DNA of 64,000 nucleotides from Flavobacterium kingsejongi (lineage in GTDB: Bacteria > Bacteroidota > Bacteroidia > Flavobacteriales > Flavobacteriaceae), in NCBI RefSeq assembly GCF_003076475.1, contig NZ_CP020919.1, positions 2,604,001 through 2,668,000 of the forward strand, read 5' to 3'. A model generated the notes under the pieces. It saw only the letters and a program-made list of their open reading frames with translations. It made no database searches and was not told the origin of the DNA. Numbering within the stretch: position 1 is the stretch's first letter; every line of letters starts with the position of its first letter. Positions 20,701-40,777 of this stretch are shown here, piece by piece. A program made the position numbers and the translations under genes.

Positions 20701-22146
20701 AATTTGCAAAGTAGTCTAGGCGCTAACCTAGATCTAGAGTACAATGAGTTAGGGCAATTGAGTAAAATGAAAACCCAACAAGATTGGCAAAGCAGCTTTG
20801 GTTATGACCAAATGGGTTTAGAAATACAACGCCTCTTGCCTGGACAAGTACAACAAACTACCACCCGAGATGCCCTAGGACGACCTACAGAGCAACTTGT
20901 AGGACATGCAAGCAAACGGGTTAAAAGCCGAAAATACCAATGGGGAATAAACAACCAGTTAAAACAAATAATAGACTCCACAACAGGCGCAACTAATTTT
21001 ACCTATAACAAAAACGGACATTTAACAGAAGCACAATATGCTGATGGAAGCACTCAAAACCGGTACCCAGACAGCCTAGGAAACCTATACGAAACACCCG
21101 AAAAAAAGGACAGAGCTTATGCTCGAGACGGTAAATTAGAAAAAAAAGGGAGCTGGCATTACAAATATGACAATCTAGGCAACCTAATAGAAAAATATAA
21201 AAAAACAGGAAGTCTTTTTTCTTTTAAAGAAGAGCATTGGTTTTATGAATGGAACTCTGCGGGAATGCTCAAAACGGTACAACGCCCTGATGGAAACTAC
21301 GTAAACTTTGCATACGATGCTTTTGGCAGACGAATTTACAAACAATTCAAGAAAACTTTTACTAACTTTGTTTGGGATGGCAATGTGCCTTTGCACGAGT
21401 GGAAAAGTTTTGAAACCCAAGACGTTCTTACCGATAGAGTAATTACTTGGATATTTGAAGAAGACAGTTATTCTCCAATAGCCAAAATAAAAAAGGACAA
21501 ACAATACAGTATTGTCAACGACCATTTAGGCACGCCCATAGAAGCCTATGCAGAAGACGGAAAATCTATTTGGGAACGCGAACTCAACAGCAATGGTAAG
21601 GTTCTAAAAGAAAAAGGAACTATTGGCACTTGTCCCTTTCTGTTTCAAGGGCAATATTACGATGAAGAGGTAGAACTGGCTTACAACCGTTTTCGCTATT
21701 ACGACCCAGAAGAAGGACGCTACATTTCCCAAGATCCAATAGGCTTATTAAGTGGCGAGTTTGGGTTTTATAATTATGTTCATGATACCAATGGTTGGAT
21801 TGATGTTTTAGGTTTAGTAAGAACTTACTCTGCACGTGTACAGGCATTACCAGAACATTTACGGGATAGACCTAAATGGAGAAAGAAAACTAAAAAGCAT
21901 TTAGATAAAACGAATCCTAAAAGAAATGGCAATTTTATAGATGTAAAAACTGACAAAGAAATTACTGGTAAAAAAGTAATTGGACATCAAAATGAAACAT
22001 GGAAAGAATATCAAGATAATCCAGCAAATCATACCAAAACAAGAAAACAAGTTATTGACGATTATAATAATGTTAATAATTTAGGATATGAAGACGCTAC
22101 ACAAAGTTCTATAGATGGTGGTACTTTTAATGGTTTAGAAAATTAA
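17701..22146 (+). CDS. Rhs polymorphic toxin with PAAR-like N-terminus and GH-E nuclease tip
   Basis: 1481 residues. The N-terminus (about 1-350) has hydrophobic helices and Pro-rich PAAR-like segments (IPPSPAPIPMPHPYIG). It is followed by the DUF6531 opening VDVATGNFFTDEEDFFLPG (about 362-380), many YD/Rhs repeats (about 400-1280) forming the cocoon, and the core [20 protein letters not shown] (about 1328-1347), where the tip is cleaved. The last ~110 residues carry KVIGHQNETWKEY and RKQVIDDYNN, the GH-E nuclease signature (HNH/EndoVII-like DNase). Delivered by the VgrG encoded upstream. The ankyrin gene 8 bases downstream is the immunity candidate. Confidence 0.92.
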   Translation: MEKESKYADKSYHEKVSQQLAITTAKETQGISTNITTAQSTYNNKNLSTSTKATALALNAVDTGIQAFGAITGMVDGVLGAALMPMLEGLGMKGMASLPISKQLDPVLGIDIHMVTIPPSPAPIPMPHPYIGMLFRPKDFLAAAIASIIPPPPAPPAMSDTATDGEQTDANIAQGLTVAHTAATMIVGMIGATVKIGGFVPRAVASTPTKNIPHFPMGAGFHPVYSRMCSKDNGHALLGSLLALADGDPIGGGGTHLHNSCQDIGIFSPHTFRPTKNKDDTTKIGLKLFLPTSMIIPIPTSGLIITNPIPAPFNPITMLKKMLRATLGKFVGGKLHKLVNKKIGSGKLQNMLHKSICTVTGHPVDVATGNFFTDEEDFFLPGPIALSWERTYYSKSDYQGPLGNGWHHAYDMAIHIDDETNTVTVRLADGRPIAFEKPSPKVSTFNKAEQLELFVDNTNRLYLWDIKENLYYYFTPNSYSELHLLQTVTNANGFALFFGYDTNGFLTKIIDAAHRELTVTNDNQGRIVTITAPHPTLDNQSFAIATYEYDAIGNLMKQTNAENDSMHFEYQGRLMTKEIWRNGLNWYFEYDGTAPGARCVHTWGDGDIYKHKLLFEEGKTIVTDSRGYDIEYYHKNGLVYKRIDPNGAINQWLYDKDNQLLSQTDPLENAYLYGYDNRGNQIQTTNPMGGTETTEYSFLHKNLPSLVQTPLGAKWKWKYDSNGNTIEVINPNNATTKIEYQNGLPNTIIDYLGNKTLLEYDQNYNLIQITEPTGAITLYTYDSLGRNTTTQNTKHAKQKLFYDLLGRVTQVEDFDGNKIKLQYDGIDNLLQYKDAQTEVSYTYKGMWKMTARHQNQKNTLFFYNKEEQLIRIENDHQPYTFKRDSVGNVVEESPFDNIVRLYKHDLAGNVLQKEIENHESILVPNTKTNYEYNKLGNIQKITYTDGVEHLFDYNPAGLLISAINPASEVTLAYNTLGTITQETQNGTTITNTYNAVGQRTNLQSSLGANLDLEYNELGQLSKMKTQQDWQSSFGYDQMGLEIQRLLPGQVQQTTTRDALGRPTEQLVGHASKRVKSRKYQWGINNQLKQIIDSTTGATNFTYNKNGHLTEAQYADGSTQNRYPDSLGNLYETPEKKDRAYARDGKLEKKGSWHYKYDNLGNLIEKYKKTGSLFSFKEEHWFYEWNSAGMLKTVQRPDGNYVNFAYDAFGRRIYKQFKKTFTNFVWDGNVPLHEWKSFETQDVLTDRVITWIFEEDSYSPIAKIKKDKQYSIVNDHLGTPIEAYAEDGKSIWERELNSNGKVLKEKGTIGTCPFLFQGQYYDEEVELAYNRFRYYDPEEGRYISQDPIGLLSGEFGFYNYVHDTNGWIDVLGLVRTYSARVQALPEHLRDRPKWRKKTKKHLDKTNPKRNGNFIDVKTDKEITGKKVIGHQNETWKEYQDNPANHTKTRKQVIDDYNNVNNLGYEDATQSSIDGGTFNGLEN

Positions 22147-22154
22147 ATAAAAAA

Positions 22155-22664
22155 ATGAAGACAATAGAAGAAATTAAATTATTACTTTTAAATTCAGATT
22201 ATGAAAGTTTAAAAGAATCACTCAATGATTATGATATAAATTCCTTTGACACCAATGGAAATAATATTTTACATTATTACATTAATTCAAATCAAAGTGT
22301 TAAAATAAAACCAGAATTAGTTATCGATTTATTAGTTTCAAAAGGATTAGATATCAATCAAAAACAAATTAAAGGTGCTTTTAAAAGAAGTCCATTGCAT
22401 ATTTCGGTTTTTATTAAACAACAGGAAATAACAGATTATTTGATTAAGTTAGGGGCTGATATTAATTCTACAGATTTAAATGGAAATAATATATTAATGA
22501 CAGCAATTTCAAGAATAAAATTTGGTGAAAATGGCGAATATTTTATAAAAAAATTAATTGAAAATAATGCCGATATAAATCAATTAAATAATCACGGTAG
22601 AAGTGCAAAAATGTCAGGTATAGAAAATGAAGGAAACGAGGCAATACACAAATATTTCATTTAG
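22155..22664 (+). CDS. Ankyrin-repeat immunity protein candidate
   Basis: 169 residues with three to four ankyrin-like repeats: FDTNGNNILHYYINS (about 33-47), RSPLHISVFIKQQEITDYLIKLG (about 77-99) and TDLNGNNILMTAISR (about 103-117), then LNNHGRSAKMSG. Ankyrin-repeat proteins are common partners of nuclease polymorphic toxins. It starts 8 bases after the GH-E Rhs stop, the expected place for the cognate immunity gene. No signal peptide, fitting cytoplasmic neutralisation of a DNase. Confidence 0.78.
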   Translation: MKTIEEIKLLLLNSDYESLKESLNDYDINSFDTNGNNILHYYINSNQSVKIKPELVIDLLVSKGLDINQKQIKGAFKRSPLHISVFIKQQEITDYLIKLGADINSTDLNGNNILMTAISRIKFGENGEYFIKKLIENNADINQLNNHGRSAKMSGIENEGNEAIHKYFI

Positions 22665-22715
22665 TCTTAGCTCAGTTGCTAAAAGTCTCCCGACTTTGAG
22701 GTATTATAAATATCA

Positions 22716-22740
22716 AAACCCAGCAATTGCTGGGTTTATT
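22716..22740 (+). terminator. Perfect hairpin after the first toxin-immunity pair
   Basis: AAACCCAGCA pairs with TGCTGGGTTT across an AT loop (22716-22737). It is followed by TATTATTA rather than a pure T run. It lies about 50 bases after the ankyrin gene and may end the vgrG-Rhs-immunity transcript. Confidence 0.6.
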
Positions 22741-22771
22741 ATTATGCAAGAAATAATAAAAAAAATATCAT

Positions 22772-22849
22772 AAAAGGTTTTTTCATTCAGATGATTTTTT
22801 ATCAGTTGCAAAGTTTGTAGATAAAAAATTAAGTATTTTAGCAAACTAG
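22772..22849 (+). pseudogene. Possible C-terminal remnant of a lost immunity gene
   Basis: A 25-codon open stretch (KRFFHSDDFLSVAKFVDK..) ends in TAG directly before the displaced HNH Rhs tip. It has a protein-like composition but no start in frame; an ATG at 22744 in another frame is cut off by TAA. Tail fragments of older immunity genes are expected between stacked Rhs tips, so I read it that way, with low certainty. Confidence 0.25.
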
Positions 22850-22862
22850 TAACGTAATCAAA

Positions 22863-23456
22863 CATGTAGGCGAACTCAACAGCAACGGTAAAGTTCTAAA
22901 AGAAAAAGGAACTATTGGAACTTGTCCGTTTCTATTTCAAGGGCAATATTACGATGAAGAGGTAGAATTGGCTTACAACCGTTTTCGTTACTACGACCCA
23001 GAAGAAGGTAGGTATATTTCTCAAGATCCAATAGAGCTTCTGGGTGGATTTGAATTGTATGCTTATGTCGAAAACACTAACCTTTTTGTAGATATTTTTG
23101 GTTGGGCTAAAAGTTATGCACAAAAGAAAGCATGGAAAGATGCTAGAGAGGCTTATTGGAAAAAAGAAGCAAAAAAGAACAAAAAAGACTATTCTCAACA
23201 TAATTTAGACAGAATGAAAAAAGGGACAGCTCCTCAACTGCAAGTTGAAGTTGAAAATAATAAAACTGGAAGAAAAGAAACAAAAGTAGTTTCAATGGAA
23301 TTACATCATAAAAAAGCTCAACATTTAGGAGGATCAAACAAATCATCCAATTTACAAAAAGTGACTCCTTGGGAACACGAAGCAATTGACACATATAGAC
23401 ATACTGGCAGCACTTTGCAAAATATTATTAGTGATGCAGGTAGTTTCGGCGGATAA
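22863..23456 (+). CDS. Displaced (orphan) Rhs tip with HNH nuclease toxin
   Basis: From 22870 the DNA repeats the end of the main Rhs gene (from 21579): GELNSNGKVLKEKGTIGTCP and [18 protein letters not shown]. No ATG opens the frame, which is open from 22842, so this is an unexpressed or recombination-ready tip rather than a full gene. After the core the sequence diverges into a toxin of about 110 residues with an HNH core: MELHHKKAQHLGG, NLQKVTPWEHEAIDTYRH. Homologous exchange with the main gene would swap the GH-E tip for this one. The immunity candidate follows 19 bases downstream. Confidence 0.82.
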   Translation, partial: HVGELNSNGKVLKEKGTIGTCPFLFQGQYYDEEVELAYNRFRYYDPEEGRYISQDPIELLGGFELYAYVENTNLFVDIFGWAKSYAQKKAWKDAREAYWKKEAKKNKKDYSQHNLDRMKKGTAPQLQVEVENNKTGRKETKVVSMELHHKKAQHLGGSNKSSNLQKVTPWEHEAIDTYRHTGSTLQNIISDAGSFGG

Positions 23457-24800: not shown

Positions 24801-25196
24801 TGCAAATTCCGGTTATATTGATCACCCCATTCCGTTTTAAAGTGAGCACCTGATTCCAGTTCAAAATGACCACCTAATTCCGGTGCAAAGTGAGCACCTC
24901 CGTTTTGATTAAAAACTATATTTTTTCATCTGTTAATTAGTATTCAAATATAATAAAATATCACTCTTTGTTTATTCCTCTTTTCTTTCTCATGGATTCT
25001 CCATGTAATTCAAGCCTATGAGATTGGTGTATAAGTCTGTCTAATATTGCATCGGCTATCGTTTTTTCTCCAATTATATCATACCAGCCTTGAACTGGTA
25101 TTTGTGATGTCACGATTATAGAGCCGTTATTATGCCTGTCTGGACATGCTAACTTAGCCTGCATTGAAAGTTAAGAAATAATCTTAATTTTAATCT

Positions 25197-25496
25197 ATGA
25201 AACAAGTCCGCAAAATTTACGACAAGGCTTTTAAGGAAAAAGCCGTTGAATTGAGTTATGATAGAACAAATGTATCAGAACTTGCCAGGGAGTTAGGAAT
25301 AACAGCCCCCCAGCTTTATAAATGGCGTAAAGAACTCCAGGAATTTGGAGAAGGAAGTTTTCCTGGAAAAGGAAATTTAAAACTAACTCCCGAGCAAGAA
25401 AAAATCCATGAACTGGAGAAAAAACTCAAAGATGCAGAGTTAGAACGTGACATATTAAAAAAAGCAATCGGCATTTTTTCCAAGAACGGTCGATGA
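25197..25496 (+). CDS. IS3-family OrfA (copy 2)
   Basis: 99 residues, identical to the protein at 9757: helix-turn-helix at the N-terminus (ELARELGITAPQLYKWRK) and a leucine-zipper-like C-terminus. It overlaps orfB by ATGA. Confidence 0.93.
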   Translation: MKQVRKIYDKAFKEKAVELSYDRTNVSELARELGITAPQLYKWRKELQEFGEGSFPGKGNLKLTPEQEKIHELEKKLKDAELERDILKKAIGIFSKNGR

Positions 25497-26371
25497 TTTA
25501 TAGTTTCATTAAAAACAATGAACAGCTATTCCCGATTGAAAAAATGTGCAGAGTTCTACAAGTAAGCAATGGAAGTTATTACCGATGGAAAAAACAAATA
25601 AATACTGCAAGACAGCAACTAAAAAGCGCCATAAAAAAACAGATAGCATTGATTTATTTTCAAACCAAGCAACGATACGGGAGTCCTAGAATAACATTAG
25701 AACTTCGAAGCATTGGTTATAAAATTTCAAGAGTTACAGTTGCAAAGTATATGAAAGAACTTGGCTTGCGAAGTAAATTAAGCAAGAAGTTTAAAGTAAC
25801 AACCAACTCTAGTCACAATTATTTAGTTGTCGAAAATGTATTAAACAGAGAGTTTACTGTAAAAATGCCATCAAAGGTTTGGGTTTCAGATATTACATAC
25901 ATCCAAACTAAAGAGGGATTTGTATACCTGACCACTATTATGGATTTATACGACAGAAAAATTATAGGCTGGAGTTTGAGCAACGCAATGAGCACTGAGC
26001 AAACGACACTTGGAGCTTGGAAAATGGCAATTAAAAACCGAGATCTTAAAAATGGTTTGATTTTTCATTCCGACAGAGGTGTCCAATATGCCAGTAAAAA
26101 GTTTGTAAATGTTCTTGATTCCTATAAAAAAATAACTCGCAGTATGAGCCGTAAAGGAAATTGCTGGGATAATGCTGTAGCCGAAAGTTTCTTCAAATCT
26201 TTGAAAACGGAATTGATTTATGGCAACAAACTCATTTCTAAAGAACAAATGAAACTGGAAATCTTTGAATACATTGAAATTTGGTACAACAGAAAAAGAA
26301 GGCATTCTGCTTTAAATTATGCAACTATTGAAGAATTCAACAATCAAATTAATTACAAAAATGTAGCTTAA
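25493..26371 (+). CDS. IS3-family OrfB transposase (copy 2)
   Basis: 292 residues, identical to the protein at 10053, with the complete DDE triad (VSDITYIQ, FHSDRGVQYAS, DNAVAESFFKS). Inserted in istB in the opposite direction to that gene. Confidence 0.95.
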   Translation: MIYSFIKNNEQLFPIEKMCRVLQVSNGSYYRWKKQINTARQQLKSAIKKQIALIYFQTKQRYGSPRITLELRSIGYKISRVTVAKYMKELGLRSKLSKKFKVTTNSSHNYLVVENVLNREFTVKMPSKVWVSDITYIQTKEGFVYLTTIMDLYDRKIIGWSLSNAMSTEQTTLGAWKMAIKNRDLKNGLIFHSDRGVQYASKKFVNVLDSYKKITRSMSRKGNCWDNAVAESFFKSLKTELIYGNKLISKEQMKLEIFEYIEIWYNRKRRHSALNYATIEEFNNQINYKNVA

Positions 26372-26978
26372 CTTACTGTGCAATTTTTGTTTGCATATCC
26401 TGTCCTCTATGATCTCTAAAAGAGTAATTCGGTTATGGCTGTCAAGTGCCTGGAGTCCAAAATCATCAAGTATTATAACATCCTGTCTTTGTATTTTGGT
26501 AAGTTCCCGTAGATAAGTACCATCTGCTTTAGCCATTTTTAGTCTAGCGAACAATTTTGAGGTATTAAAATAACTTACCTTAAAACCCTGTATACAGGCT
26601 TGATAACCTAATGCAGTACCTAAATAACTTTTACCGACACCGGTGCTTCCAGTGATTAAAATGTTTTCGTTTTTCTCTATAAATTCGCATTCTGCCAGAC
26701 GCAGTACCATGTTTCGGTCCAGGTTACGTGATACATCAAAATTGATACTTTCAATATTTGATTTGTAATGGAATTTGGCATTAGTGATACTTCGTTCAAT
26801 ACGACGATTGTACCTTTCATCCCATTCTGCATCAATAATCATCGATACAAACTGGTCAAGGGTATAATGATCTGTTTTCCCGCTTTCAATGGCTGTTTTA
26901 AAAGCATTAAACATGCCATAAAGCTTCATTTGTTTCATTTTGGTTACTGTGGATTCATTCATTTTTTCAAGATTTAAT

Positions 26979-28526
26979 TTAGTTATAATAGTGTTTTCCT
27001 CTTATGTTACTGTGATCGGGAAGTTCCTGCTCAGGTTCTTGATCAAAATCAATATGATCCAAGTTGTTTTCTAAAATGTTTTGTATGGTCTTAAAATTGT
27101 AAATTTTAAAATCAAGTGCCCGCCTGCAGGCATTTATTAATCGCTGTCTGCCTACCTTTTTTTCAAAATTCAGTATTCCTAAACAGCTTTTATAAGCCTG
27201 TTCTGGATGATTTCTGCTTTCGATTATCTGCATTATATATTCTCCTACTGACTCATCAATATTATTAGCCCATTCAATGAAGCGGGCAGCACTCCATTGG
27301 GCTACAAATTGATGTGTACTGGCTAAATGCTCAGGAGTTGTTGTATAGACATAAGGTTTGTAGTTTCTTGGATGTACAGCTATTCGATTGTATTTATAAT
27401 AAATCTCTACTGTTGATTTGGTATATAACAGCTTGGCTTTCTTCTTTACATATTGATACGGAACGCTGTAATAGTTTTTGTCCTGGCTTAATTGAACATG
27501 ACCGTTTTGCATTACTGTTGCAAAAGACTGGTATTTAATTTCAAAACGATCTTGTGGGAGTGGACGCAGTTTTTCTTTCTCGTCTTCTAAAAATAATTCA
27601 AAGCGGGAATAAGGGCGTCCTGTCAGTTTTCTGTTATTGTGAGAGTCAAGTAAATCCCAGATCTGCTGGTTTAATTCTTCCAGAGAAAAGAACTTAGTTT
27701 CTTTTATGGTTACATAAATCCTTCGATATAATATCTTAACAGCTCCTTCAACTAGTGACTTGTCTCTGGGCCTGTAAGCTCTGGCAGGTAAAATTGTGGT
27801 TTCGTAATGTTCTGCTAAATCAGCCAGGGTTTCATTGATTGTCGGTTCAAAACGACTGCTTTTTATTACGGCAGATTTTAAATTATCTGGAACAATGGCG
27901 GCAGGAGTGCCTTCAAAAAAGCGCATGGCATTTTCTACCGAGTCAACAAAGTTTTCCTTTTGCTGGCTCATGGAAGCTTCAGCATACGTGTATTGGCTAG
28001 CGCCCAATATTGCTACAAAAAATTGTACTTCTTTGACTTCTCCAGTATCTATATCAATAATTGAGAGTGTCTTTCCGGCATAATCAACATACATTTTATC
28101 ACCAGCCTTATGGTTCATATGCATGACCGGATTAACTCGTTTGCCCCATATATTGTAATGATAATGAAATTGTGAAGTTCGATAACCATCAGGATTTACA
28201 GCAATATATTGTTCCCACATATGCTGTACGGTAACGCCAACTTTTTTTAGTTCACGTTCCATTTTAGGAAAAAAATCATAAAGTGTCTGTAATCTCGGGC
28301 TAATGGCCTCTACACTAGTCTGGGAGAATAAAAGTTCCAGCTCTGCATCGGTTTTTTGGTCGATTAATTCAAAGCTTAATTCGAGAACTTCAAATAAAGA
28401 AATATATTTCTTTACCGTATTTCTTGAAAGGGATAAGTAGCTACTTATAAATAACTTACTCTTTCCATTACAATAGAATTTAATTACTTTTCTAATTTTA
28501 CTCATGTCTGTTATTTTGTTTGCCAT
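26979..28526 (-). CDS. istA: IstA transposase, IS21 copy A
   Basis: 515 residues. N-terminal helix-turn-helix (about 10-45, SSYLSLSRNTVKKYI), then the integrase core with DYAGKTLSIIDIDTG (first Asp at the start), IVPDNLKSAV (second Asp) and RPRDKSLVEGAVKILYRRI (catalytic Glu in the EGAV step). A C-terminal DNA-binding beta-domain follows. It cuts and joins DNA together with IstB. Same protein as at 32493 and 38166. istB follows after 16 bases. Confidence 0.95.
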   Translation of the reverse strand: MANKITDMSKIRKVIKFYCNGKSKLFISSYLSLSRNTVKKYISLFEVLELSFELIDQKTDAELELLFSQTSVEAISPRLQTLYDFFPKMERELKKVGVTVQHMWEQYIAVNPDGYRTSQFHYHYNIWGKRVNPVMHMNHKAGDKMYVDYAGKTLSIIDIDTGEVKEVQFFVAILGASQYTYAEASMSQQKENFVDSVENAMRFFEGTPAAIVPDNLKSAVIKSSRFEPTINETLADLAEHYETTILPARAYRPRDKSLVEGAVKILYRRIYVTIKETKFFSLEELNQQIWDLLDSHNNRKLTGRPYSRFELFLEDEKEKLRPLPQDRFEIKYQSFATVMQNGHVQLSQDKNYYSVPYQYVKKKAKLLYTKSTVEIYYKYNRIAVHPRNYKPYVYTTTPEHLASTHQFVAQWSAARFIEWANNIDESVGEYIMQIIESRNHPEQAYKSCLGILNFEKKVGRQRLINACRRALDFKIYNFKTIQNILENNLDHIDFDQEPEQELPDHSNIRGKHYYN

Positions 28527-28706
28527 AATCCGTAAATTTTTAACGAATGTATGGTTCTAACAACATGAAAAAATCAATAGTTTTTAATACTTAATTCACC
28601 ACAAAACTTGGTGGTCAATTTGCTCCGGAATTAGGTGGTCAGTTTGCTCCGGAACGGGTGGTCAATTTACTCCGGAATTAGGTGGTCAAATTGACCGGTT
28701 TTTCCA

Positions 28707-28902
28707 GTTTCCTGATCGGAAACTTAATCCGCAGACAATAAGAATGAGCGTGATCTGCAACTGGCTCAACGAGAAAAAAATTCCTTTAGAACAGGCTCAG
28801 GAACTTGCCGGGCATAAGTGGCCAGGAACTACGGAAAAATACATTAAAGTGAACAGTTCACAGCAACGAGAAATGATTAATCGTTATTTTCCAAATATTT
28901 AA
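28707..28902 (+). pseudogene. C-terminal remnant of a tyrosine recombinase
   Basis: A frame without a start, cut off by IS21 copy A at 28706, codes for 64 residues. They include ELAGHKWPGTTEKYI, the H-x-x-W...Y end of the catalytic domain of XerC/phage-type integrases with the tyrosine nucleophile in TEKYI. The rest of the gene is not in the window. It points to an earlier integrated element whose left part was lost. Confidence 0.85.
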
Positions 28903-28950
28903 TAATATTACATGGAGTGTTAAAAGTTAGTGCACTTTGATTCTTATTCG

Positions 28951-28973
28951 TATATTTGTAAAATATTTACAAA
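28951..28973 (+). promoter_or_regulatory. Promoter -7 box with palindromic operator for the defence operon
   Basis: TATATTTG (28951-28958) matches the Bacteroidota -7 box TAnnTTTG. A perfect inverted repeat TTTGTAAA-ATA-TTTACAAA (28955-28973) overlaps it. The expected -33 box is only weakly present (TTAG at 28927). A dimeric repressor bound there would block transcription. The ATG at 28990 is 17 bases after the palindrome. No repressor gene lies next to it. Confidence 0.55.
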
Positions 28974-28989
28974 TTTTAAAATAAGAGTT

Positions 28990-30294
28990 ATGATTGAAGA
29001 ATTTAGCTTTGGAAACATGTGTTCCTTTAAAGACATTCAAACTTTAAACATGAAAGCGGCTAAAATTAAATCTAATAATTCAGTTTTAGATAAACAAAAT
29101 GTAATTCCTATTAAGGAGGATTTGTCTTTGTTAAAATCAAAAGCTATTTATGGTGCTAACGCTAGTGGAAAGAGTAATGTTATTCGTGGTTTAGTATCAT
29201 TCATAAAGATTATTAGGGAATCTGTGAAGGATGAGAGTGCATTAAGATTTATTGCTCCGTATGAGCTATCAACCGAAACGATTGATCAACCTACTTTTTT
29301 TCAATTAATTTTCAGGGTCGATGATGTAAGATATAGATACGGCTTTGAAGCTGATGAAAAGTCAATTAAAAGTGAGTGGCTTTTTTCAACACCAAGTGTT
29401 CGCGAGCAAACTTTATTTATCAGAGAAAATAATAAGATTCTGGAAATTAGTAAAAAGTATTTTACAGAGGGAATTAAGTTTGTTTCTTTAATGGAGGATT
29501 TTAGTGAGGAAGCTGAAGCTGAAGGCGGAATCTTTAGAGATAATTCCTTATTCTTATCTTCTTTATCTTCATTTGGATTTGGTAAAATTTCCAAAAAAAT
29601 TATTAAGGAGATTAGTTCTATTGCTATTATAAGCGGATTAGGGCATAAAGGAATGTTTGCTCTTGCTGGTGACTCCTTGCAAGATCCAGATCAAAAGAAA
29701 TTTGTTTTAAATTTTTTAAAGAATGCTGATATAGGAATTCAAGATTTAGAAACAATTGATTTTTCAAATGACAACTTGCCTGAAAACATTGAAGAGGATG
29801 TTGCAAAGACTTTGAAAGACAGAAAATTTCTTTTATCTCACAGAACCGTTTATGACAAGAATTTGAAGAAAGATGGCAATGCAACCTTTTCATTTCTTTC
29901 GCAAGAATCAGAAGGTACTAGAAAAATGTTTGAAATAAGTCCTTTTATTTATAATTCATTGAAAAATGGAACCACATTAATTATTGATGAATTTGATTCA
30001 AGATTTCATCCACTATTAACCAAGAAAATTGTTGAATTGTTTAATTCAAATCAAAATCCAAGGTCACAGCTCATTTTTACAACCCATGATACTAATTTGT
30101 TGTCATCTGAATTATTGAGAAGAGATCAAATTGATTTTGTTGAAAAAGATAAATATGGAGCAAGTCATTTATATACTCTGGTTGAGATTAAGGGCATTAG
30201 AAATAATGCTTCATTTGAAAAAGATTATATTCAAGGAAAATATGGTGCTATCCCTTTTTTAGGTAATTTTTCTAACATCTTAAATTTTGAATAA
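28990..30294 (+). CDS. AbiLi/RloA-like AAA ATPase
   Basis: 434 residues from the ATG at 28990; an upstream ATP-independent GTG/TTG frame from 28930 runs through the promoter palindrome and is rejected. N-terminal MIEEFSFGNMCSFKDIQ begins an SMC/RecF-type domain. Walker A is GANASGKS (55-62), an ABC-like SEGT signature follows near 313, Walker B is LIIDEFD (330-336), and a switch histidine lies in TTHDTN (about 366). The end GKYGAIPFLGNF is typical of RloA/AbiLi proteins. It acts as the sensor or motor of a two-gene abortive-infection system with the next gene. The stop and next start overlap (TAATG). Confidence 0.82.
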   Translation: MIEEFSFGNMCSFKDIQTLNMKAAKIKSNNSVLDKQNVIPIKEDLSLLKSKAIYGANASGKSNVIRGLVSFIKIIRESVKDESALRFIAPYELSTETIDQPTFFQLIFRVDDVRYRYGFEADEKSIKSEWLFSTPSVREQTLFIRENNKILEISKKYFTEGIKFVSLMEDFSEEAEAEGGIFRDNSLFLSSLSSFGFGKISKKIIKEISSIAIISGLGHKGMFALAGDSLQDPDQKKFVLNFLKNADIGIQDLETIDFSNDNLPENIEEDVAKTLKDRKFLLSHRTVYDKNLKKDGNATFSFLSQESEGTRKMFEISPFIYNSLKNGTTLIIDEFDSRFHPLLTKKIVELFNSNQNPRSQLIFTTHDTNLLSSELLRRDQIDFVEKDKYGASHLYTLVEIKGIRNNASFEKDYIQGKYGAIPFLGNFSNILNFE

Positions 30295-30980
30295 TGCCTA
30301 AAAGTACGAAAGCTATAAAAGTAACAGATAAGGCAAAAGCATGGAACAAAAAGGCTAAATCTTCTAATTATAAAATAGATACTATTCCTGTAAACAAGAT
30401 AATATTAATTGTTTGTGAGGGACAAACAGAGAAATTATATTTTGAATCATTTCCTGTATTAGGAATGAAAGTGGAAGCTATAGATCTTCGTGGTCAGTCA
30501 AAATTGAAACTCATTGAATCTACACAAAAAATAATTGAAATATCTGATTCTGAATATGACGGTGTTTGGTGTGTTTTTGATATGGATGTTAAGCGCGGAG
30601 CTGAAGAATTCTCTGATTTTGATAATTCTATTGAGAAAGGAATAGAACTTGGTTACAACATAGCTTACTCTAATGATTCATTTGAATTATGGTTTTACTT
30701 GCATTTTGAATATACTGACGCCGAACATCTAAGAGGATTTTACTATGACGAGTTGGGGAAAAAGTTTGGTATTAATTATGTAAGAGAGGGTAAGAAATAT
30801 GCTTTTTGTTTACAACTTTACAATACATTGATGGAGGATGAAAATTCTTCGCAGGAAAAGGCAATAGACAGGGCTGAAAAATTATTTAAAAAAGTTAAAG
30901 ATTTGCCTTTTCACCAGCAAAATCCAGTAACTAAAGTATTTGAATTAGTTAAAGAACTTAATAAGAATTTAAGACGATAA
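30294..30980 (+). CDS. RloB-like (AbiLii) protein
   Basis: 228 residues. The RloB family pattern is visible: IILIVCEGQTEKLYF (about 35-49, with the conserved Glu), DGVWCVFDMDVKRG (about 83-96, D-x-D), and SNDSFELWFYLHFEY (about 120-134). The layout is Toprim-like, so a metal-dependent nuclease activity is plausible. RloA and RloB form the AbiL abortive-infection pair known from Lactococcus plasmids and restriction loci. Translationally coupled to the ATPase. Confidence 0.85.
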   Translation: MPKSTKAIKVTDKAKAWNKKAKSSNYKIDTIPVNKIILIVCEGQTEKLYFESFPVLGMKVEAIDLRGQSKLKLIESTQKIIEISDSEYDGVWCVFDMDVKRGAEEFSDFDNSIEKGIELGYNIAYSNDSFELWFYLHFEYTDAEHLRGFYYDELGKKFGINYVREGKKYAFCLQLYNTLMEDENSSQEKAIDRAEKLFKKVKDLPFHQQNPVTKVFELVKELNKNLRR

Positions 30981-30983
30981 AAA

Positions 30984-31937
30984 ATGAATGATGTATACCA
31001 TTATCCACCGGATCTTTTTGATTTAATAGTTCAAACAATCCCGTTATTGAATAAATCCAAAAAAGCTGTTTTAACTTTTTTTAATGGTGCGGGAGTAGAA
31101 GTTGCATTATATAATGATGTTGTAAAAACGTTGCAGACAAATCCTGATTCACTGTCTAAGTATGATATTTGCAGAACGATACTTGAACGTATTAATCAAA
31201 ATTCTGAAAAATATTTAAGACAGAGAAGAGAACTTTTAAAAAGAATTACAGAGTTTGAAGCATTTTCTACTTGTTGGGAAAATGATCAGTTTAAGGCAAA
31301 AGGATTAGTTGCAGAGATTCAAAAAGTAATTAATGTTAAAGATTCTTTTACAAGAATGAAACAGGAAAGGGAGAATGAACAAAGCCTTAGAAAACAAGAG
31401 TATCAAAATAAAATTAATCAAATACAAAAAAGGAAAGTAAAATTAGAGGATATTAAAAAAGAACTATTTTCTTTATTTTCTGAAACGAATCCACAAAAAA
31501 GAGGCAAGCTGTTAGAATCAGCTCTGGGAAATTATTTCAAAACTTATGAAATTTTAGTTAAAGAAGATTTTAAGAGAAATGGAGAAGCCGGAGAGGGTAT
31601 TATTGAACAAATAGATGGAATCATTGAAATAGATAATCAAGTCTACTTTGTTGAAATGAAATGGAAAAAAGATGCAATAGGTAGCGATGATATATACCAG
31701 CATTTAGGAAGAATTTATCATCGAGCAAACGCTCATGGGATATTTATATCTGCTTCCGGATATACTCCTTCAGGAATAACCGCAGGGAAAGAAGCTCTTA
31801 TTAAGAATGCGTTACTGGTTATGTTTGATTTAGAGGAATTCGTAAAAATAATCGAATCTGAAAGTGACTTTCCTAATTATTTACGTTCTAAAATACAGAG
31901 CGCAATAATAGAAAAAAACCCATATAAAAGAGGTTGA
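30984..31937 (+). CDS. PD-(D/E)xK nuclease, Mrr-like
   Basis: 317 residues, 3 bases after the RloB gene. A helical N-terminal part (about 1-100), a coiled coil (about 120-165), then a restriction-endonuclease-like domain: RGKLLESALGNYF (Glu about 178), QIDGIIEI (Asp 211) and YFVEMKWKK (Glu 224, Lys 226), followed by DIYQHLGR and GIFISASGYT. This arrangement is that of Mrr-type nucleases. It may be a third component of the AbiL-like system or a separate effector. The operon ends in a terminator 15 bases after the stop. Confidence 0.75.
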   Translation: MNDVYHYPPDLFDLIVQTIPLLNKSKKAVLTFFNGAGVEVALYNDVVKTLQTNPDSLSKYDICRTILERINQNSEKYLRQRRELLKRITEFEAFSTCWENDQFKAKGLVAEIQKVINVKDSFTRMKQERENEQSLRKQEYQNKINQIQKRKVKLEDIKKELFSLFSETNPQKRGKLLESALGNYFKTYEILVKEDFKRNGEAGEGIIEQIDGIIEIDNQVYFVEMKWKKDAIGSDDIYQHLGRIYHRANAHGIFISASGYTPSGITAGKEALIKNALLVMFDLEEFVKIIESESDFPNYLRSKIQSAIIEKNPYKRG

Positions 31938-31951
31938 AGATTTAAAAGTTG

Positions 31952-31980
31952 AAAAGCTCTCAGAAATGAGGGCTTTTTTA
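31952..31980 (+). terminator. Terminator of the three-gene defence operon
   Basis: AAAAGCTCTC (31952-31961) pairs with GAGGGCTTTT (31968-31977, one G-T pair) and T residues follow. It closes the ATPase-RloB-nuclease unit. Confidence 0.8.
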
Positions 31981-32101
31981 TTGGCAATAAGTGAAAATTA
32001 TTAGGAAAATAATTAAAGTAAATCTACTTTCGTATTGTGGAAAATGCAAATGGACGTTCTTTATATTGAGATTTTTTGCAAGGGGTTTTTCTCTATAGAA
32101 A

Positions 32102-32312
32102 AGGTTTGCAGAACCTTATAAGTATAAGTACAATGGAAAGGAGCTTCAAGACGAGCTGGGGCTTAACCTTTACGACTACGGAGCGAGAAATTATGACCCT
32201 GCAATTGGAAGGTGGATGAACATCGACCCACTAGCAGAGAAGATGAGGAGACATAGCCCTTATAACTATGCTTACAATAATCCGATTAGATTTATTGACC
32301 CAGACGGTATGG
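32102..32312 (+). pseudogene. Rhs-core remnant of a second type, cut by IS21
   Basis: Seventy in-frame codons without a start. [40 protein letters not shown] and [12 protein letters not shown] are the standard core end of Bacteroidota YD/Rhs proteins. It differs from the [12 protein letters not shown] core of the T6SS Rhs gene, so it came from another gene. IS21 copy B starts within it at 32313. The 164 bases between the terminator and this fragment hold nothing I can assign. Confidence 0.85.
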
Positions 32313-32492
32313 TGGAAAAACCGGTCAATTTGACCACCTAATTCCGGAGTAAATTGACCACCCGTTCCGGAGCAAACTGACCACCTAATTCCGGAGCAAA
32401 TTGACCACCAAGTTTTGTGGTGAATTAAGTATTAAAAACTATTGATTTTTTCATGTTGTTAGAACCATACATTCGTTAAAAATTTACGGATT

Positions 32493-34040
32493 ATGGCAAA
32501 CAAAATAACAGACATGAGTAAAATTAGAAAAGTAATTAAATTCTATTGTAATGGAAAGAGTAAGTTATTTATAAGTAGCTACTTATCCCTTTCAAGAAAT
32601 ACGGTAAAGAAATATATTTCTTTATTTGAAGTTCTCGAATTAAGCTTTGAATTAATCGACCAAAAAACCGATGCAGAGCTGGAACTTTTATTCTCCCAGA
32701 CTAGTGTAGAGGCCATTAGCCCGAGATTACAGACACTTTATGATTTTTTTCCTAAAATGGAACGTGAACTAAAAAAAGTTGGCGTTACCGTACAGCATAT
32801 GTGGGAACAATATATTGCTGTAAATCCTGATGGTTATCGAACTTCACAATTTCATTATCATTACAATATATGGGGCAAACGAGTTAATCCGGTCATGCAT
32901 ATGAACCATAAGGCTGGTGATAAAATGTATGTTGATTATGCCGGAAAGACACTCTCAATTATTGATATAGATACTGGAGAAGTCAAAGAAGTACAATTTT
33001 TTGTAGCAATATTGGGCGCTAGCCAATACACGTATGCTGAAGCTTCCATGAGCCAGCAAAAGGAAAACTTTGTTGACTCGGTAGAAAATGCCATGCGCTT
33101 TTTTGAAGGCACTCCTGCCGCCATTGTTCCAGATAATTTAAAATCTGCCGTAATAAAAAGCAGTCGTTTTGAACCGACAATCAATGAAACCCTGGCTGAT
33201 TTAGCAGAACATTACGAAACCACAATTTTACCTGCCAGAGCTTACAGGCCCAGAGACAAGTCACTAGTTGAAGGAGCTGTTAAGATATTATATCGAAGGA
33301 TTTATGTAACCATAAAAGAAACTAAGTTCTTTTCTCTGGAAGAATTAAACCAGCAGATCTGGGATTTACTTGACTCTCACAATAACAGAAAACTGACAGG
33401 ACGCCCTTATTCCCGCTTTGAATTATTTTTAGAAGACGAGAAAGAAAAACTGCGTCCACTCCCACAAGATCGTTTTGAAATTAAATACCAGTCTTTTGCA
33501 ACAGTAATGCAAAACGGTCATGTTCAATTAAGCCAGGACAAAAACTATTACAGCGTTCCGTATCAATATGTAAAGAAGAAAGCCAAGCTGTTATATACCA
33601 AATCAACAGTAGAGATTTATTATAAATACAATCGAATAGCTGTACATCCAAGAAACTACAAACCTTATGTCTATACAACAACTCCTGAGCATTTAGCCAG
33701 TACACATCAATTTGTAGCCCAATGGAGTGCTGCCCGCTTCATTGAATGGGCTAATAATATTGATGAGTCAGTAGGAGAATATATAATGCAGATAATCGAA
33801 AGCAGAAATCATCCAGAACAGGCTTATAAAAGCTGTTTAGGAATACTGAATTTTGAAAAAAAGGTAGGCAGACAGCGATTAATAAATGCCTGCAGGCGGG
33901 CACTTGATTTTAAAATTTACAATTTTAAGACCATACAAAACATTTTAGAAAACAACTTGGATCATATTGATTTTGATCAAGAACCTGAGCAGGAACTTCC
34001 CGATCACAGTAACATAAGAGGAAAACACTATTATAACTAA
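32493..34040 (+). CDS. istA: IstA transposase, IS21 copy B
   Basis: 515 residues, same protein as at 26979: helix-turn-helix, then the DDE core (YVDYAGKTLS, VPDNLKSAV, KSLVEGAVKI). An inverted repeat in its first 30 codons is also shared by all copies. Intact, and probably the source of transposition activity for the family in this genome. Confidence 0.95.
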   Translation: MANKITDMSKIRKVIKFYCNGKSKLFISSYLSLSRNTVKKYISLFEVLELSFELIDQKTDAELELLFSQTSVEAISPRLQTLYDFFPKMERELKKVGVTVQHMWEQYIAVNPDGYRTSQFHYHYNIWGKRVNPVMHMNHKAGDKMYVDYAGKTLSIIDIDTGEVKEVQFFVAILGASQYTYAEASMSQQKENFVDSVENAMRFFEGTPAAIVPDNLKSAVIKSSRFEPTINETLADLAEHYETTILPARAYRPRDKSLVEGAVKILYRRIYVTIKETKFFSLEELNQQIWDLLDSHNNRKLTGRPYSRFELFLEDEKEKLRPLPQDRFEIKYQSFATVMQNGHVQLSQDKNYYSVPYQYVKKKAKLLYTKSTVEIYYKYNRIAVHPRNYKPYVYTTTPEHLASTHQFVAQWSAARFIEWANNIDESVGEYIMQIIESRNHPEQAYKSCLGILNFEKKVGRQRLINACRRALDFKIYNFKTIQNILENNLDHIDFDQEPEQELPDHSNIRGKHYYN

Positions 34041-34056
34041 ATTAAATCTTGAAAAA

Positions 34057-34794
34057 ATGAATGAATCCACAGTAACCAAAATGAAACAAATGAAGCTTTA
34101 TGGCATGTTTAATGCTTTTAAAACAGCCATTGAAAGCGGGAAAACAGATCATTATACCCTTGACCAGTTTGTATCGATGATTATTGATGCAGAATGGGAT
34201 GAAAGGTACAATCGTCGTATTGAACGAAGTATCACTAATGCCAAATTCCATTACAAATCAAATATTGAAAGTATCAATTTTGATGTATCACGTAACCTGG
34301 ACCGAAACATGGTACTGCGTCTGGCAGAATGCGAATTTATAGAGAAAAACGAAAACATTTTAATCACTGGAAGCACCGGTGTCGGTAAAAGTTATTTAGG
34401 TACTGCATTAGGTTATCAAGCCTGTATACAGGGTTTTAAGGTAAGTTATTTTAATACCTCAAAATTGTTCGCTAGACTAAAAATGGCTAAAGCAGATGGT
34501 ACTTATCTACGGGAACTTACCAAAATACAAAGACAGGATGTTATAATACTTGATGATTTTGGACTCCAGGCACTTGACAGCCATAACCGAATTACTCTTT
34601 TAGAGATCATAGAGGACAGGCATAATAACGGCTCTATAATCGTGACATCACAAATACCAGTTCAAGGCTGGTATGATATAATTGGAGAAAAAACGATAGC
34701 CGATGCAATATTAGACAGACTTATACACCAATCTCATAGGCTTGAATTACATGGAGAATCCATGAGAAAGAAAAGAGGAATAAACAAAGAGTGA
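34057..34794 (+). CDS. istB: IstB helper ATPase, IS21 copy B
   Basis: 245 residues, DnaC-like AAA ATPase. Walker A GSTGVGKSYLG (about 106-116), Walker B VIILDDFGLQ (about 168-177), sensor VTSQIPVQGWYD. It regulates target choice and stimulates IstA. It follows istA after 16 bases. Only one codon differs from copy C. Confidence 0.95.
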   Translation: MNESTVTKMKQMKLYGMFNAFKTAIESGKTDHYTLDQFVSMIIDAEWDERYNRRIERSITNAKFHYKSNIESINFDVSRNLDRNMVLRLAECEFIEKNENILITGSTGVGKSYLGTALGYQACIQGFKVSYFNTSKLFARLKMAKADGTYLRELTKIQRQDVIILDDFGLQALDSHNRITLLEIIEDRHNNGSIIVTSQIPVQGWYDIIGEKTIADAILDRLIHQSHRLELHGESMRKKRGINKE

Positions 34795-35139
34795 TATTTT
34801 ATTATATTTGAATACTAATTAACAGATGAAAAAATATAGTTTTTAATCAAAACGGAGGTGCTCACTTTGCACCGGAATTAGGTGGTCATTTTGAACTGGA
34901 ATCAGGTGCTCACTTTAAAACGGAATGGGGTGATCAATATAACCGGAATTTGCAGAATACAGTTGAGGAAAGCTTTTTTTAGTCATTCTGTAAATTAGCA
35001 GTTTAACTTTTAAAACTTAAAAACGTATATGCTACTATGACAACTGCGACAGCACCGTATTTTGTACCATTCCTTTTTTAACTTATCTTCGCTCTTTATA
35101 CATTGGTGAGTACATTTTACTCCTTTAAAAATTTACTTT

Positions 35140-37888: not shown

Positions 37889-38165
37889 ATTTTGAAATGG
37901 AAAATAGATTTAGATGAAATAGTTTTTTAATTGTTGCGTTGCAACCCTGATCGCTCGGAAATTCTTTCCGTGCCCGTTCTTATATTGGAAAAACCGGTCA
38001 ATTTGACCACCTAATTCCGGAGTAAATTGACCACCCGTTCCGGAGCAAACTGACCACCTAATTCCGGAGCAAATTGACCACCAAGTTTTGTGGTGAATTA
38101 AGTATTAAAAACTATTGATTTTTTCATGTTGTTAGAACCATACATTCGTTAAAAATTTACGGATT

Positions 38166-39713
38166 ATGGCAAACAAAATAACAGACATGAGTAAAATTAG
38201 AAAAGTAATTAAATTCTATTGTAATGGAAAGAGTAAGTTATTTATAAGTAGCTACTTATCCCTTTCAAGAAATACGGTAAAGAAATATATTTCTTTATTT
38301 GAAGTTCTCGAATTAAGCTTTGAATTAATCGACCAAAAAACCGATGCAGAGCTGGAACTTTTATTCTCCCAGACTAGTGTAGAGGCCATTAGCCCGAGAT
38401 TACAGACACTTTATGATTTTTTTCCTAAAATGGAACGTGAACTAAAAAAAGTTGGCGTTACCGTACAGCATATGTGGGAACAATATATTGCTGTAAATCC
38501 TGATGGTTATCGAACTTCACAATTTCATTATCATTACAATATATGGGGCAAACGAGTTAATCCGGTCATGCATATGAACCATAAGGCTGGTGATAAAATG
38601 TATGTTGATTATGCCGGAAAGACACTCTCAATTATTGATATAGATACTGGAGAAGTCAAAGAAGTACAATTTTTTGTAGCAATATTGGGCGCTAGCCAAT
38701 ACACGTATGCTGAAGCTTCCATGAGCCAGCAAAAGGAAAACTTTGTTGACTCGGTAGAAAATGCCATGCGCTTTTTTGAAGGCACTCCTGCCGCCATTGT
38801 TCCAGATAATTTAAAATCTGCCGTAATAAAAAGCAGTCGTTTTGAACCGACAATCAATGAAACCCTGGCTGATTTAGCAGAACATTACGAAACCACAATT
38901 TTACCTGCCAGAGCTTACAGGCCCAGAGACAAGTCACTAGTTGAAGGAGCTGTTAAGATATTATATCGAAGGATTTATGTAACCATAAAAGAAACTAAGT
39001 TCTTTTCTCTGGAAGAATTAAACCAGCAGATCTGGGATTTACTTGACTCTCACAATAACAGAAAACTGACAGGACGCCCTTATTCCCGCTTTGAATTATT
39101 TTTAGAAGACGAGAAAGAAAAACTGCGTCCACTCCCACAAGATCGTTTTGAAATTAAATACCAGTCTTTTGCAACAGTAATGCAAAACGGTCATGTTCAA
39201 TTAAGCCAGGACAAAAACTATTACAGCGTTCCGTATCAATATGTAAAGAAGAAAGCCAAGCTGTTATATACCAAATCAACAGTAGAGATTTATTATAAAT
39301 ACAATCGAATAGCTGTACATCCAAGAAACTACAAACCTTATGTCTATACAACAACTCCTGAGCATTTAGCCAGTACACATCAATTTGTAGCCCAATGGAG
39401 TGCTGCCCGCTTCATTGAATGGGCTAATAATATTGATGAGTCAGTAGGAGAATATATAATGCAGATAATCGAAAGCAGAAATCATCCAGAACAGGCTTAT
39501 AAAAGCTGTTTAGGAATACTGAATTTTGAAAAAAAGGTAGGCAGACAGCGATTAATAAATGCCTGCAGGCGGGCACTTGATTTTAAAATTTACAATTTTA
39601 AGACCATACAAAACATTTTAGAAAACAACTTGGATCATATTGATTTTGATCAAGAACCTGAGCAGGAACTTCCCGATCACAGTAACATAAGAGGAAAACA
39701 CTATTATAACTAA
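38166..39713 (+). CDS. istA: IstA transposase, IS21 copy C
   Basis: 515 residues, same protein as copies A and B, with the DDE core intact. See the entry at 26979 for motif positions. Confidence 0.95.
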   Translation: MANKITDMSKIRKVIKFYCNGKSKLFISSYLSLSRNTVKKYISLFEVLELSFELIDQKTDAELELLFSQTSVEAISPRLQTLYDFFPKMERELKKVGVTVQHMWEQYIAVNPDGYRTSQFHYHYNIWGKRVNPVMHMNHKAGDKMYVDYAGKTLSIIDIDTGEVKEVQFFVAILGASQYTYAEASMSQQKENFVDSVENAMRFFEGTPAAIVPDNLKSAVIKSSRFEPTINETLADLAEHYETTILPARAYRPRDKSLVEGAVKILYRRIYVTIKETKFFSLEELNQQIWDLLDSHNNRKLTGRPYSRFELFLEDEKEKLRPLPQDRFEIKYQSFATVMQNGHVQLSQDKNYYSVPYQYVKKKAKLLYTKSTVEIYYKYNRIAVHPRNYKPYVYTTTPEHLASTHQFVAQWSAARFIEWANNIDESVGEYIMQIIESRNHPEQAYKSCLGILNFEKKVGRQRLINACRRALDFKIYNFKTIQNILENNLDHIDFDQEPEQELPDHSNIRGKHYYN

Positions 39714-39729
39714 ATTAAATCTTGAAAAA

Positions 39730-40467
39730 ATGAATGAATCCACAGTAACCAAAATGAAACAAATGAAGCTTTATGGCATGTTTAATGCTTTTAAAACAGC
39801 CATTGAAAGCGGGAAAACAGATCATTATACCCTTGACCAGTTTGTATCGATGATTATTGATGCAGAATGGGATGAAAGGTACAATCGTCGTATTGAACGA
39901 AGTATCACTAATGCCAAATTCCATTACAAATCAAATATTGAAAGTATCAATTTTGATGTATCACGTAACCTGGACCGAAACATGGTACTGCGTCTGGCAG
40001 AATGCGAATTTATAGAGAAAAACGAAAACATTTTAATCACTGGAAGCACCGGTGTCGGTAAAAGTTATTTAGGTACTGCATTAGGTTATCAAGCCTGTAT
40101 ACAGGGTTTTAAGGTAAGTTATTTTAATACCTTAAAATTGTTCGCTAGACTAAAAATGGCTAAAGCAGATGGTACTTATCTACGGGAACTTACCAAAATA
40201 CAAAGACAGGATGTTATAATACTTGATGATTTTGGACTCCAGGCACTTGACAGCCATAACCGAATTACTCTTTTAGAGATCATAGAGGACAGGCATAATA
40301 ACGGCTCTATAATCGTGACATCACAAATACCAGTTCAAGGCTGGTATGATATAATTGGAGAAAAAACGATAGCCGATGCAATATTAGACAGACTTATACA
40401 CCAATCTCATAGGCTTGAATTACATGGAGAATCCATGAGAAAGAAAAGAGGAATAAACAAAGAGTGA
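39730..40467 (+). CDS. istB: IstB helper ATPase, IS21 copy C
   Basis: 245 residues. Identical to copy B except for one residue: Leu in FNTLKLFARL where B has Ser (TTA for TCA). The change lies about 25 residues after Walker A and does not touch the ATP motifs. Confidence 0.95.
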   Translation: MNESTVTKMKQMKLYGMFNAFKTAIESGKTDHYTLDQFVSMIIDAEWDERYNRRIERSITNAKFHYKSNIESINFDVSRNLDRNMVLRLAECEFIEKNENILITGSTGVGKSYLGTALGYQACIQGFKVSYFNTLKLFARLKMAKADGTYLRELTKIQRQDVIILDDFGLQALDSHNRITLLEIIEDRHNNGSIIVTSQIPVQGWYDIIGEKTIADAILDRLIHQSHRLELHGESMRKKRGINKE

Positions 40468-40777
40468 TATTTTATTATATTTGAATACTAATTAACAGAT
40501 GAAAAAATATAGTTTTTAATCAAAACGGAGGTGCTCACTTTGCACCGGAATTAGGTGGTCATTTTGAACTGGAATCAGGTGCTCACTTTAAAACGGAATG
40601 GGGTGATCAATATAACCGGAATTTGCACCATTTGTTTTAATTATGGTAAAAGATATTATTTCCTTTGGTTGCAAAATCGAAACAAAGATTAAAAGCTGAT
40701 TGAGAACGTAATTGGCCGGTACTGCCCATGATTAGTGACGAAAGTTTTGCTTCATCATCTTTGTAGTTTCGGACATT

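Follow-up and report, generated by a model that had tools for sequence, protein, structure and literature searches.

A promoter dyad recurring upstream of RloA genes and an added nuclease gene in an AbiL-type operon of Flavobacterium kingsejongi

Introduction

The phage-defence system AbiL of Lactococcus lactis pairs an ATPase (AbiLi) with a Toprim-like protein (AbiLii), and how it and related ATPase-Toprim systems keep their toxic effector safe before infection is, to our knowledge, poorly understood. The two proteins are also called RloA and RloB, names which come from restriction loci of Campylobacter. Here we describe an operon of this type in a 64,000-nucleotide (nt) stretch of Flavobacterium kingsejongi (contig NZ_CP020919.1, positions 2,604,001 to 2,668,000 of the forward strand; hereafter the window), in which a palindrome lies over the promoter and a third gene, C, encodes a restriction-type nuclease.

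Members of the RloB family are reported both in AbiL and in operons for type I restriction (PMC10440598), and one AbiLii homologue, from Fusobacterium nucleatum, is toxic in Escherichia coli, while AbiLii of L. lactis is not (PMC3985639). In PARIS, the Toprim tRNase AriB stays bound to the ATPase AriA, which lets it go once it senses a phage protein (PMC12409363). In AbiE, the antitoxin AbiEi represses its own promoter via inverted repeats (PMC7319586). RloC is a different protein, a tRNase (PMC2610378), and because the name is taken gene C should not be called RloC. As far as its available text goes, the literature searched (preprints and most subscription papers lay outside it) describes neither an operator of AbiL or RloAB nor a fixed third nuclease, and contains no comparable operator for PARIS.

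We give a probability of roughly 0.6 to the reading that the operon described here is an AbiL-type phage-defence operon which represses itself and has C as an added effector.

Results

The operon and its promoter comprise the following features.

28942-28986 (45 base pairs, bp), unstranded: long compound dyad TCTTATT-N6-TTTGTAAA-ATA-TTTACAAA-N6-AATAAGA, centre 28964 (mirror pairing)
28951-28958, plus strand: -7 promoter box of the Bacteroidota type TAnnTTTG, TATATTTG (sequence; invariant in seven aligned operons)
28955-28973, unstranded: 19-bp dyad TTTG-N11-CAAA, proposed operator, TTTGTAAA-ATA-TTTACAAA (comparison of RloA upstream regions)
28990-30294, plus strand: gene A, RloA/AbiLi, AAA_21 ABC-type ATPase, 434 amino acids (open reading frame (ORF), Pfam, PADLOC)
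30294-30980, plus strand: gene B, RloB/AbiLii, Toprim-like, 228 amino acids (ORF, Pfam, PADLOC)
30984-31937, plus strand: gene C, Mrr_cat PD-(D/E)xK nuclease with a helical N-terminal half, 317 amino acids (ORF, Pfam)
31951-31978, plus strand: intrinsic terminator hairpin (folding against shuffles)

An earlier note, made from the sequence alone, had described an ATPase, an RloB-like protein and an Mrr-type nuclease as coupled genes ending in a terminator, and this was confirmed: A and B overlap by 1 base (TAATG), B and C are 3 bases apart, and the 71-nt stretch holding the hairpin has a minimum free energy of -16.4 kcal/mol (1 of 200 shuffles was equally stable). The frame of A is open from GTG 28930; relatives begin at ATG, and ATG 28990 is taken as its start. 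The identification of the first two genes as an AbiL pair also held. Gene A matches Pfam AAA_21 (6.3e-34) and the PADLOC AbiLi model PDLC02335 (5.5e-90, residues 1-429), and gene B matches Pfam RloB (3.1e-38) and the AbiLii model PDLC02337 (6.6e-29). The PADLOC model of AriA matches gene A as well (3.3e-33); at E ≤ 1 only AbiLii matches gene B, and no AriB model does. ATPase and Toprim-like protein are encoded by two separate genes, not fused as in OLD/Gabija. Among 54 distinct RloB loci outside this genome (pooled searches plus one locus from the search with C, duplicates dropped), RloA lies upstream of RloB in 52. By sequence, the window operon is an AbiL/RloAB operon to which gene C is added.

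The perfect palindrome that the earlier note had seen over the -7 box is present at 28955-28973, overlapping the box (TAnnTTTG, the Bacteroidota -7 consensus) and lying inside the 45-bp dyad. The 4.22-Mb genome has a single copy with these exact arms. By itself such a palindrome is no great surprise, since a repeat with 8-bp arms and a spacer of 0-3 turned up in 3.6% of 2000 Markov-simulated regions of 283 nt. Comparison with other operons gives much stronger evidence. The window and six relatives, four of them without C downstream, have in common a 47-nt promoter module that aligns without gaps. The 45-bp dyad has 17 of 22 mirror pairs in the window, and across the seven operons 106 of 154 pairs form at one mirror centre. 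Pairing did not exceed 56% at any of 20 other centres, and this count was reached in 0 of 20,000 column shuffles. Two pairs change on both sides, with a covariation score reached by 22 of 500 letter shuffles, and the percentage paired was reached by 43 of 500. In this genome the 45-bp pattern has one site at 0-2 mismatches; a single further site appears at 3 mismatches, a level at which the reversed control gives 4. Across 33 related genomes the best sites have 2 mismatches, and there are 8 of these, versus 6 for the reversed control.

The short form of the dyad, exact TTTG-N11-CAAA, was counted in two sets of RloA upstream regions. The first, from Bacteroidota, holds 39 regions (ORF of at least 380 amino acids, region of at least 150 nt, duplicates dropped), and the later set holds 32 usable regions from viral contigs, plasmids and phages (26 from 34 IMG/VR loci and 6 named, one duplicate dropped). 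The motif is present in 20/39 regions of the first set (18/37 without the two founders, the window and Flavobacterium endoglycinae, which had suggested it) and in 11/32 of the later set, 31/71 in total; Markov shuffles gave means of 0.57 and 0.61 with maxima of 3 and 4, respectively. The geometry came from the first set; the exact later-set count followed an unlocked look at that set and is therefore not fully blind. Other spacings from N4 to N20 were found in 0-7 regions of the first set and 0-2 of the later one. When RloA proteins were clustered at 60% identity the motif was found in 18 of 35 clusters, and proteins with the motif are down to 25% identical. For control genes, taken from the same loci and the window, the figure is 5/327, and three of these five cases go back to a single homologous site within C, with the window gene entering the count twice. 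This site, at 31017-31035 in the start of C, has 7/9 pairs by hand count and is also present in Flavobacteriaceae PS02337; it probably reflects a coding constraint. As a separate observation, TTTG-N19-CAAA gave the highest off-spacing value (7/39 first-set regions, 0/32 in the later set), perhaps due to overlapping half-sites.

In a box-locked test the dyad had to start at the TTTG of TAnnTTTG. Such a box is present in 24/39 first-set regions, and 11 of these, the two founders included, have a 19-bp dyad with at least 7/9 pairs. No dyad of this quality was found at the 403 TAnnTTTG sites elsewhere or at the 27 boxes that lie upstream of 290 other genes. At width 19, 13/35 RloA boxes show 75% pairing, against 0/403 control boxes, and no RloA box does so at other widths from 13 to 30. 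The pair adjoining the core occurs in all four Watson-Crick forms and is formed in 19/28 cases. In the later set, without the box requirement, many of the best dyads were again TTTG-N11-CAAA. A conserved dyad thus lies over the operon's own core promoter, as in autoregulated toxin-antitoxin-like operons.

A chance origin of the palindrome in an A+T-rich promoter was favoured when the right arms in F. endoglycinae and PS02337 proved imperfect, and the few percent obtained for the window alone would allow it. This candidate was dropped after the mirror-centre and spacing tests and is now highly improbable: the mirror centre is fixed in seven operons beyond any column shuffle, one spacing recurs upstream of distant RloA genes, and 8 of the 11 later-set motif loci have at least 50% G+C.

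RloAB was met in viral contigs at 34 RloB loci. One named record among the later-set motif loci is from Prevotella, and the other ten are viral contigs. Phage relatives were checked for five of the eleven (L152, L164, L168, L175 and L177): the relatives of L164 and L175 are Pseudomonas phages and those of L168 are P2-like enterobacterial phages (best match 76% identity over 62% of the stretch), all of them phages of Pseudomonadota; none was found for L152, and L177 gave only weak or tRNA-like matches. As judged from these sequences, the motif moves together with RloA, within Bacteroidota and also into phages that have other hosts. Upstream of C without RloAB it is present in 1/63 regions. Among the 31 motif loci C is seen in two (window and PS02337), a 30-residue piece in one and none, within the DNA covered, in 28, so C is not needed for the dyad.

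Gene C matches Mrr_cat with 1.2e-6 and 29.1 bits (cut-off 21) and has a restriction-enzyme fold, and its catalytic residues D211, E224 and K226 are invariant across 22 sequences. The N-terminal half is strongly conserved and helical, with a long helix, and has no Pfam family. Sequence searches against solved structures gave only matches at E ≥ 0.03 for C, which were not used, and none for B. The distribution of C was followed in three genome samples, which overlap in part (the family search used protein B and is less sensitive). In the phylum sample the Pfam RloB model was found in 67/395 genomes and C relatives in 9/395; the nine include this genome, a 30-residue piece and five weak matches (23-28% identity). 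The family sample has B in 9/397 and C in 4/397 genomes, three of these weak, and the genus sample B in 17/189 and C in 4/189, two of them weak.

Fifty of the 54 RloB loci extend at least 600 bases downstream of B; among these, an intact C is present in one (L048, PS02337), 2 bases after B, and in one, F. endoglycinae, C is cut after 30 codons, followed by an insertion-sequence-like ORF (reading of the translation), with A and B still open. Four close A-B relatives (L031, L115, L116 and L127) have no C downstream. The search with C gave 66 loci elsewhere, in named bacterial and archaeal genomes, and only L048 among them has RloAB beside C. As a universal third AbiL component C is ruled out by the samples and the RloB loci, and it is not a fixed one, because intact C occurs in one other RloB locus and RloAB in 1/66 C loci. 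The gene order that the earlier note had proposed to look for in other genomes was therefore met intact once and as a 30-codon piece once; the idea of a fixed part fell across the RloAB family (1/50 intact, 1/50 broken) and stood as an association within one lineage. Here the window aligns with the 20.9-kb PS02337 locus at 79% over 28915-31941 only, from the promoter to the stop of C; C of the window, PS02337 and five database relatives form one clade (support 0.989) within a large family; and the ratios of nonsynonymous to synonymous substitution rates (dN/dS) between window and PS02337 are 0.104 for A, 0.049 for B and 0.064 for C, rough values because dS is above 1 (saturated). On these grounds, this lineage appears to have passed on all three genes as a group under common selection, and C appears to be a single capture retained by selection.

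It is a serious contender, somewhat short of an even bet, that C is a hitch-hiking, independent restriction nuclease which shares only the promoter, giving two defences in a row; the 65/66 C loci without RloAB, the four close relatives that lack C and the broken C beside open A and B in F. endoglycinae would all fit. However, the spacing of 2-3 bases, the promoter-to-C-stop unit found in two different surroundings, the single clade and the purifying selection on all three genes speak for more than a shared promoter, and the close coupling of C with other multi-protein systems hints at a partner role. We consider it unlikely that C is a second effector physically gated by RloA, with the three proteins in one complex. 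Relatives of C do overlap ABC-three-component genes, including an ATPase, on 3/3 plasmid records read (of 9 matched), and the long helix of the conserved N-terminal half could be an adaptor, but C is missing from nearly all RloAB loci seen and also occurs near type I restriction genes or operons (12/66 loci) and adjoining TIR genes (5/66).

In five proteobacterial genomes (L070, L078, L080, L086 and L094) a C-family nuclease lies directly upstream of a CAP12/Pycsar-type TIR gene, a possible two-gene system, and in the plasmid loci L149, L150 and L151 (Azotobacter, Klebsiella and Citrobacter) the overlapping nuclease is possibly a fourth component of the ABC-three-component systems. None of 22 IMG/VR pattern matches to C was confirmed, and phage records contained none. 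In this genome, a type I restriction partner for C was sought and only HsdR_N matches were found, in a 365-amino-acid frame near genome position 663 kb, far from C. The C family is worth separate attention as a nuclease that moves between defence systems.

The surroundings of the operon contain the following features.

24801-28706, minus strand: IS21-type element, interrupted by an IS3-type element at 25141-26398 (Pfam rve, HTH_Tnp_1)
28708-28902, plus strand: 3' end of a tyrosine recombinase gene, cut by an IS21-type element (64 amino acids; 89% identical to the end of an F. endoglycinae recombinase)
32099-32311, plus strand: Rhs-like core fragment, cut by an IS21-type element (reading of the translation)
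32313-34954, plus strand: IS21-type element, second copy (sequence match)
37986-40627: IS21-type element, third copy

The name IS21-type follows the earlier note. The first IS21-type copy is 100% identical to each of the other two over 2308 bp, so the copies are recent. The copies at 24801-28706 and 32313-34954 flank the operon in inverted orientation; a composite IS21 transposon is not claimed, and no target-site duplication was seen by eye at the copy ends. The 291-amino-acid F. endoglycinae recombinase that gave the 89% match lies upstream of the same operon; there (L043, 6530-7914), two tandem tyrosine-recombinase ORFs (165 and 291 amino acids; Phage_integrase) directly precede the operon and may have moved it, and the window keeps only the end of the second. 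Over 53 nt the Rhs-like fragment matches, at 94%, DNA that lies downstream of this operon in F. endoglycinae; its 71 residues match no Pfam family. Of the setting that the earlier note had drawn, the flanking IS21-type copies and the recombinase remnant were thus found again, and the Rhs label stays a reading of the translation. Farther off, at 17701-23453, an RHS-repeat protein is followed by an ankyrin-repeat protein and a Col-Pyo_DNase-like ORF, which looks like a polymorphic toxin locus. In PS02337 (L048, 17715-19713) an overlapping ATPase ORF and an apparent HNH ORF, which look like a Septu-type pair, lie about 7 kb downstream of the operon, which may therefore stand in a defence island.

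Discussion

The recurrence of one dyad geometry upstream of RloA supports well, by comparison of mirror centre, width and recurrence, the suggestion of the earlier note that protein A or B might act at the palindrome. The best and simplest reading of these sequences is an operator to which RloA or RloB would bind, since the motif travels with RloA and the long form has a single site at 0-2 mismatches in the genome. As the dyad covers the core promoter, binding would mean repression, by analogy with AbiEi for AbiE. In the proposed mechanism RloA, the ABC ATPase, would sense infection and keep RloB, the presumed Toprim-like nuclease, inactive; freed RloB would halt phage growth by harming the infected cell, on the pattern of AriA and AriB in PARIS. 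This effector logic is modelled on PARIS and on the toxicity of the AbiLii homologue. RloA or RloB, alone or complexed, would also bind TTTG-N11-CAAA at the core promoter, so that expression stays low as long as no infection upsets the complex. C would be an extra DNA-cutting effector that one Flavobacteriaceae lineage put under the same promoter.

Several observations weigh against this reading. Family scans recognised no DNA-binding domain in A or B. In the box-locked test no later-set site has 7 or more pairs, and most regions have no box. Inner pairing is only moderately above chance when sites are thinned to 12, with 694 of 20,000 shuffles reaching the value; unthinned, 111 of 20,000 do. 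The exact motif is missing in 40/71 RloA regions, among them the Lactococcus prophage pair L196 and the Klebsiella phage pair L197. The 64-kb window, to which this count refers, has 12 copies of the short form, and RloA is far away from most of them; a single copy therefore means little, and the enrichment upstream of RloA is the evidence. The absence of C from nearly all RloAB loci seen leaves its role beside them uncertain.

The lack of a recognised DNA-binding domain and the 12 copies in the window would also fit a dyad bound by a transcription factor of the host (SOS, CRP/FNR or other), whose regulon the AbiL genes merely joined. We regard this as quite unlikely. The genome contains one site of the long form at 0-2 mismatches and one copy of the 19-bp sequence with its exact arms. 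The motif is found with RloA both in Bacteroidota and in phages that infect other hosts, against 5/327 for other genes at the same loci. CRP sites have an even-length centre, whereas that of the dyad is odd. SOS repressors of Bacteroidetes do have palindromic sites that diverge between lineages, but the reported motifs, GGA-N5-TCC, CTAA-N5-TTAG and TTAC-N5-GTAA, differ in shape (PMC8565304).

With self-repression through RloA or RloB preferred, the comparative evidence points to an operator common to 31/71 RloAB operons examined and to C as a lineage-specific addition of a promiscuous nuclease. The wider statement is evenly balanced in our view: that an operator of their own, TTTG-N11-CAAA, belongs to many RloAB/AbiL systems of Bacteroidota and of phages of Pseudomonadota, that RloA or RloB serves in a phage-triggered killing device and also represses in a sequence-specific way, although no DNA-binding domain is recognised in it, and that one Flavobacteriaceae lineage added the roaming nuclease C to this self-regulated unit. 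If true, infection would release toxin and promoter together. A conserved operator makes self-regulation of AbiL directly testable, points to DNA recognition by proteins in which no DNA-binding domain is recognised, and offers a DNA handle for annotating RloAB operons.

Among known systems, Mrr-type restriction nucleases resemble C in Mrr_cat with intact PD-(D/E)xK residues; they differ in that C has the long helical N-terminal half outside Pfam and lies near type I restriction genes in 12/66 loci. AbiE, a type IV toxin-antitoxin system, is likewise an abortive-infection operon with self-repression through inverted repeats, which is proposed here, but is made of other protein families. PARIS is alike in pairing an ABC ATPase with a separate Toprim-type protein, and its AriA model matches A; however, gene B matches AbiLii and no AriB model. 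AbiL of L. lactis is alike in both proteins, their order and the overlap of their genes. Its differences are that the Lactococcus prophage pair lacks TTTG-N11-CAAA and that the window operon has the extra nuclease gene C.

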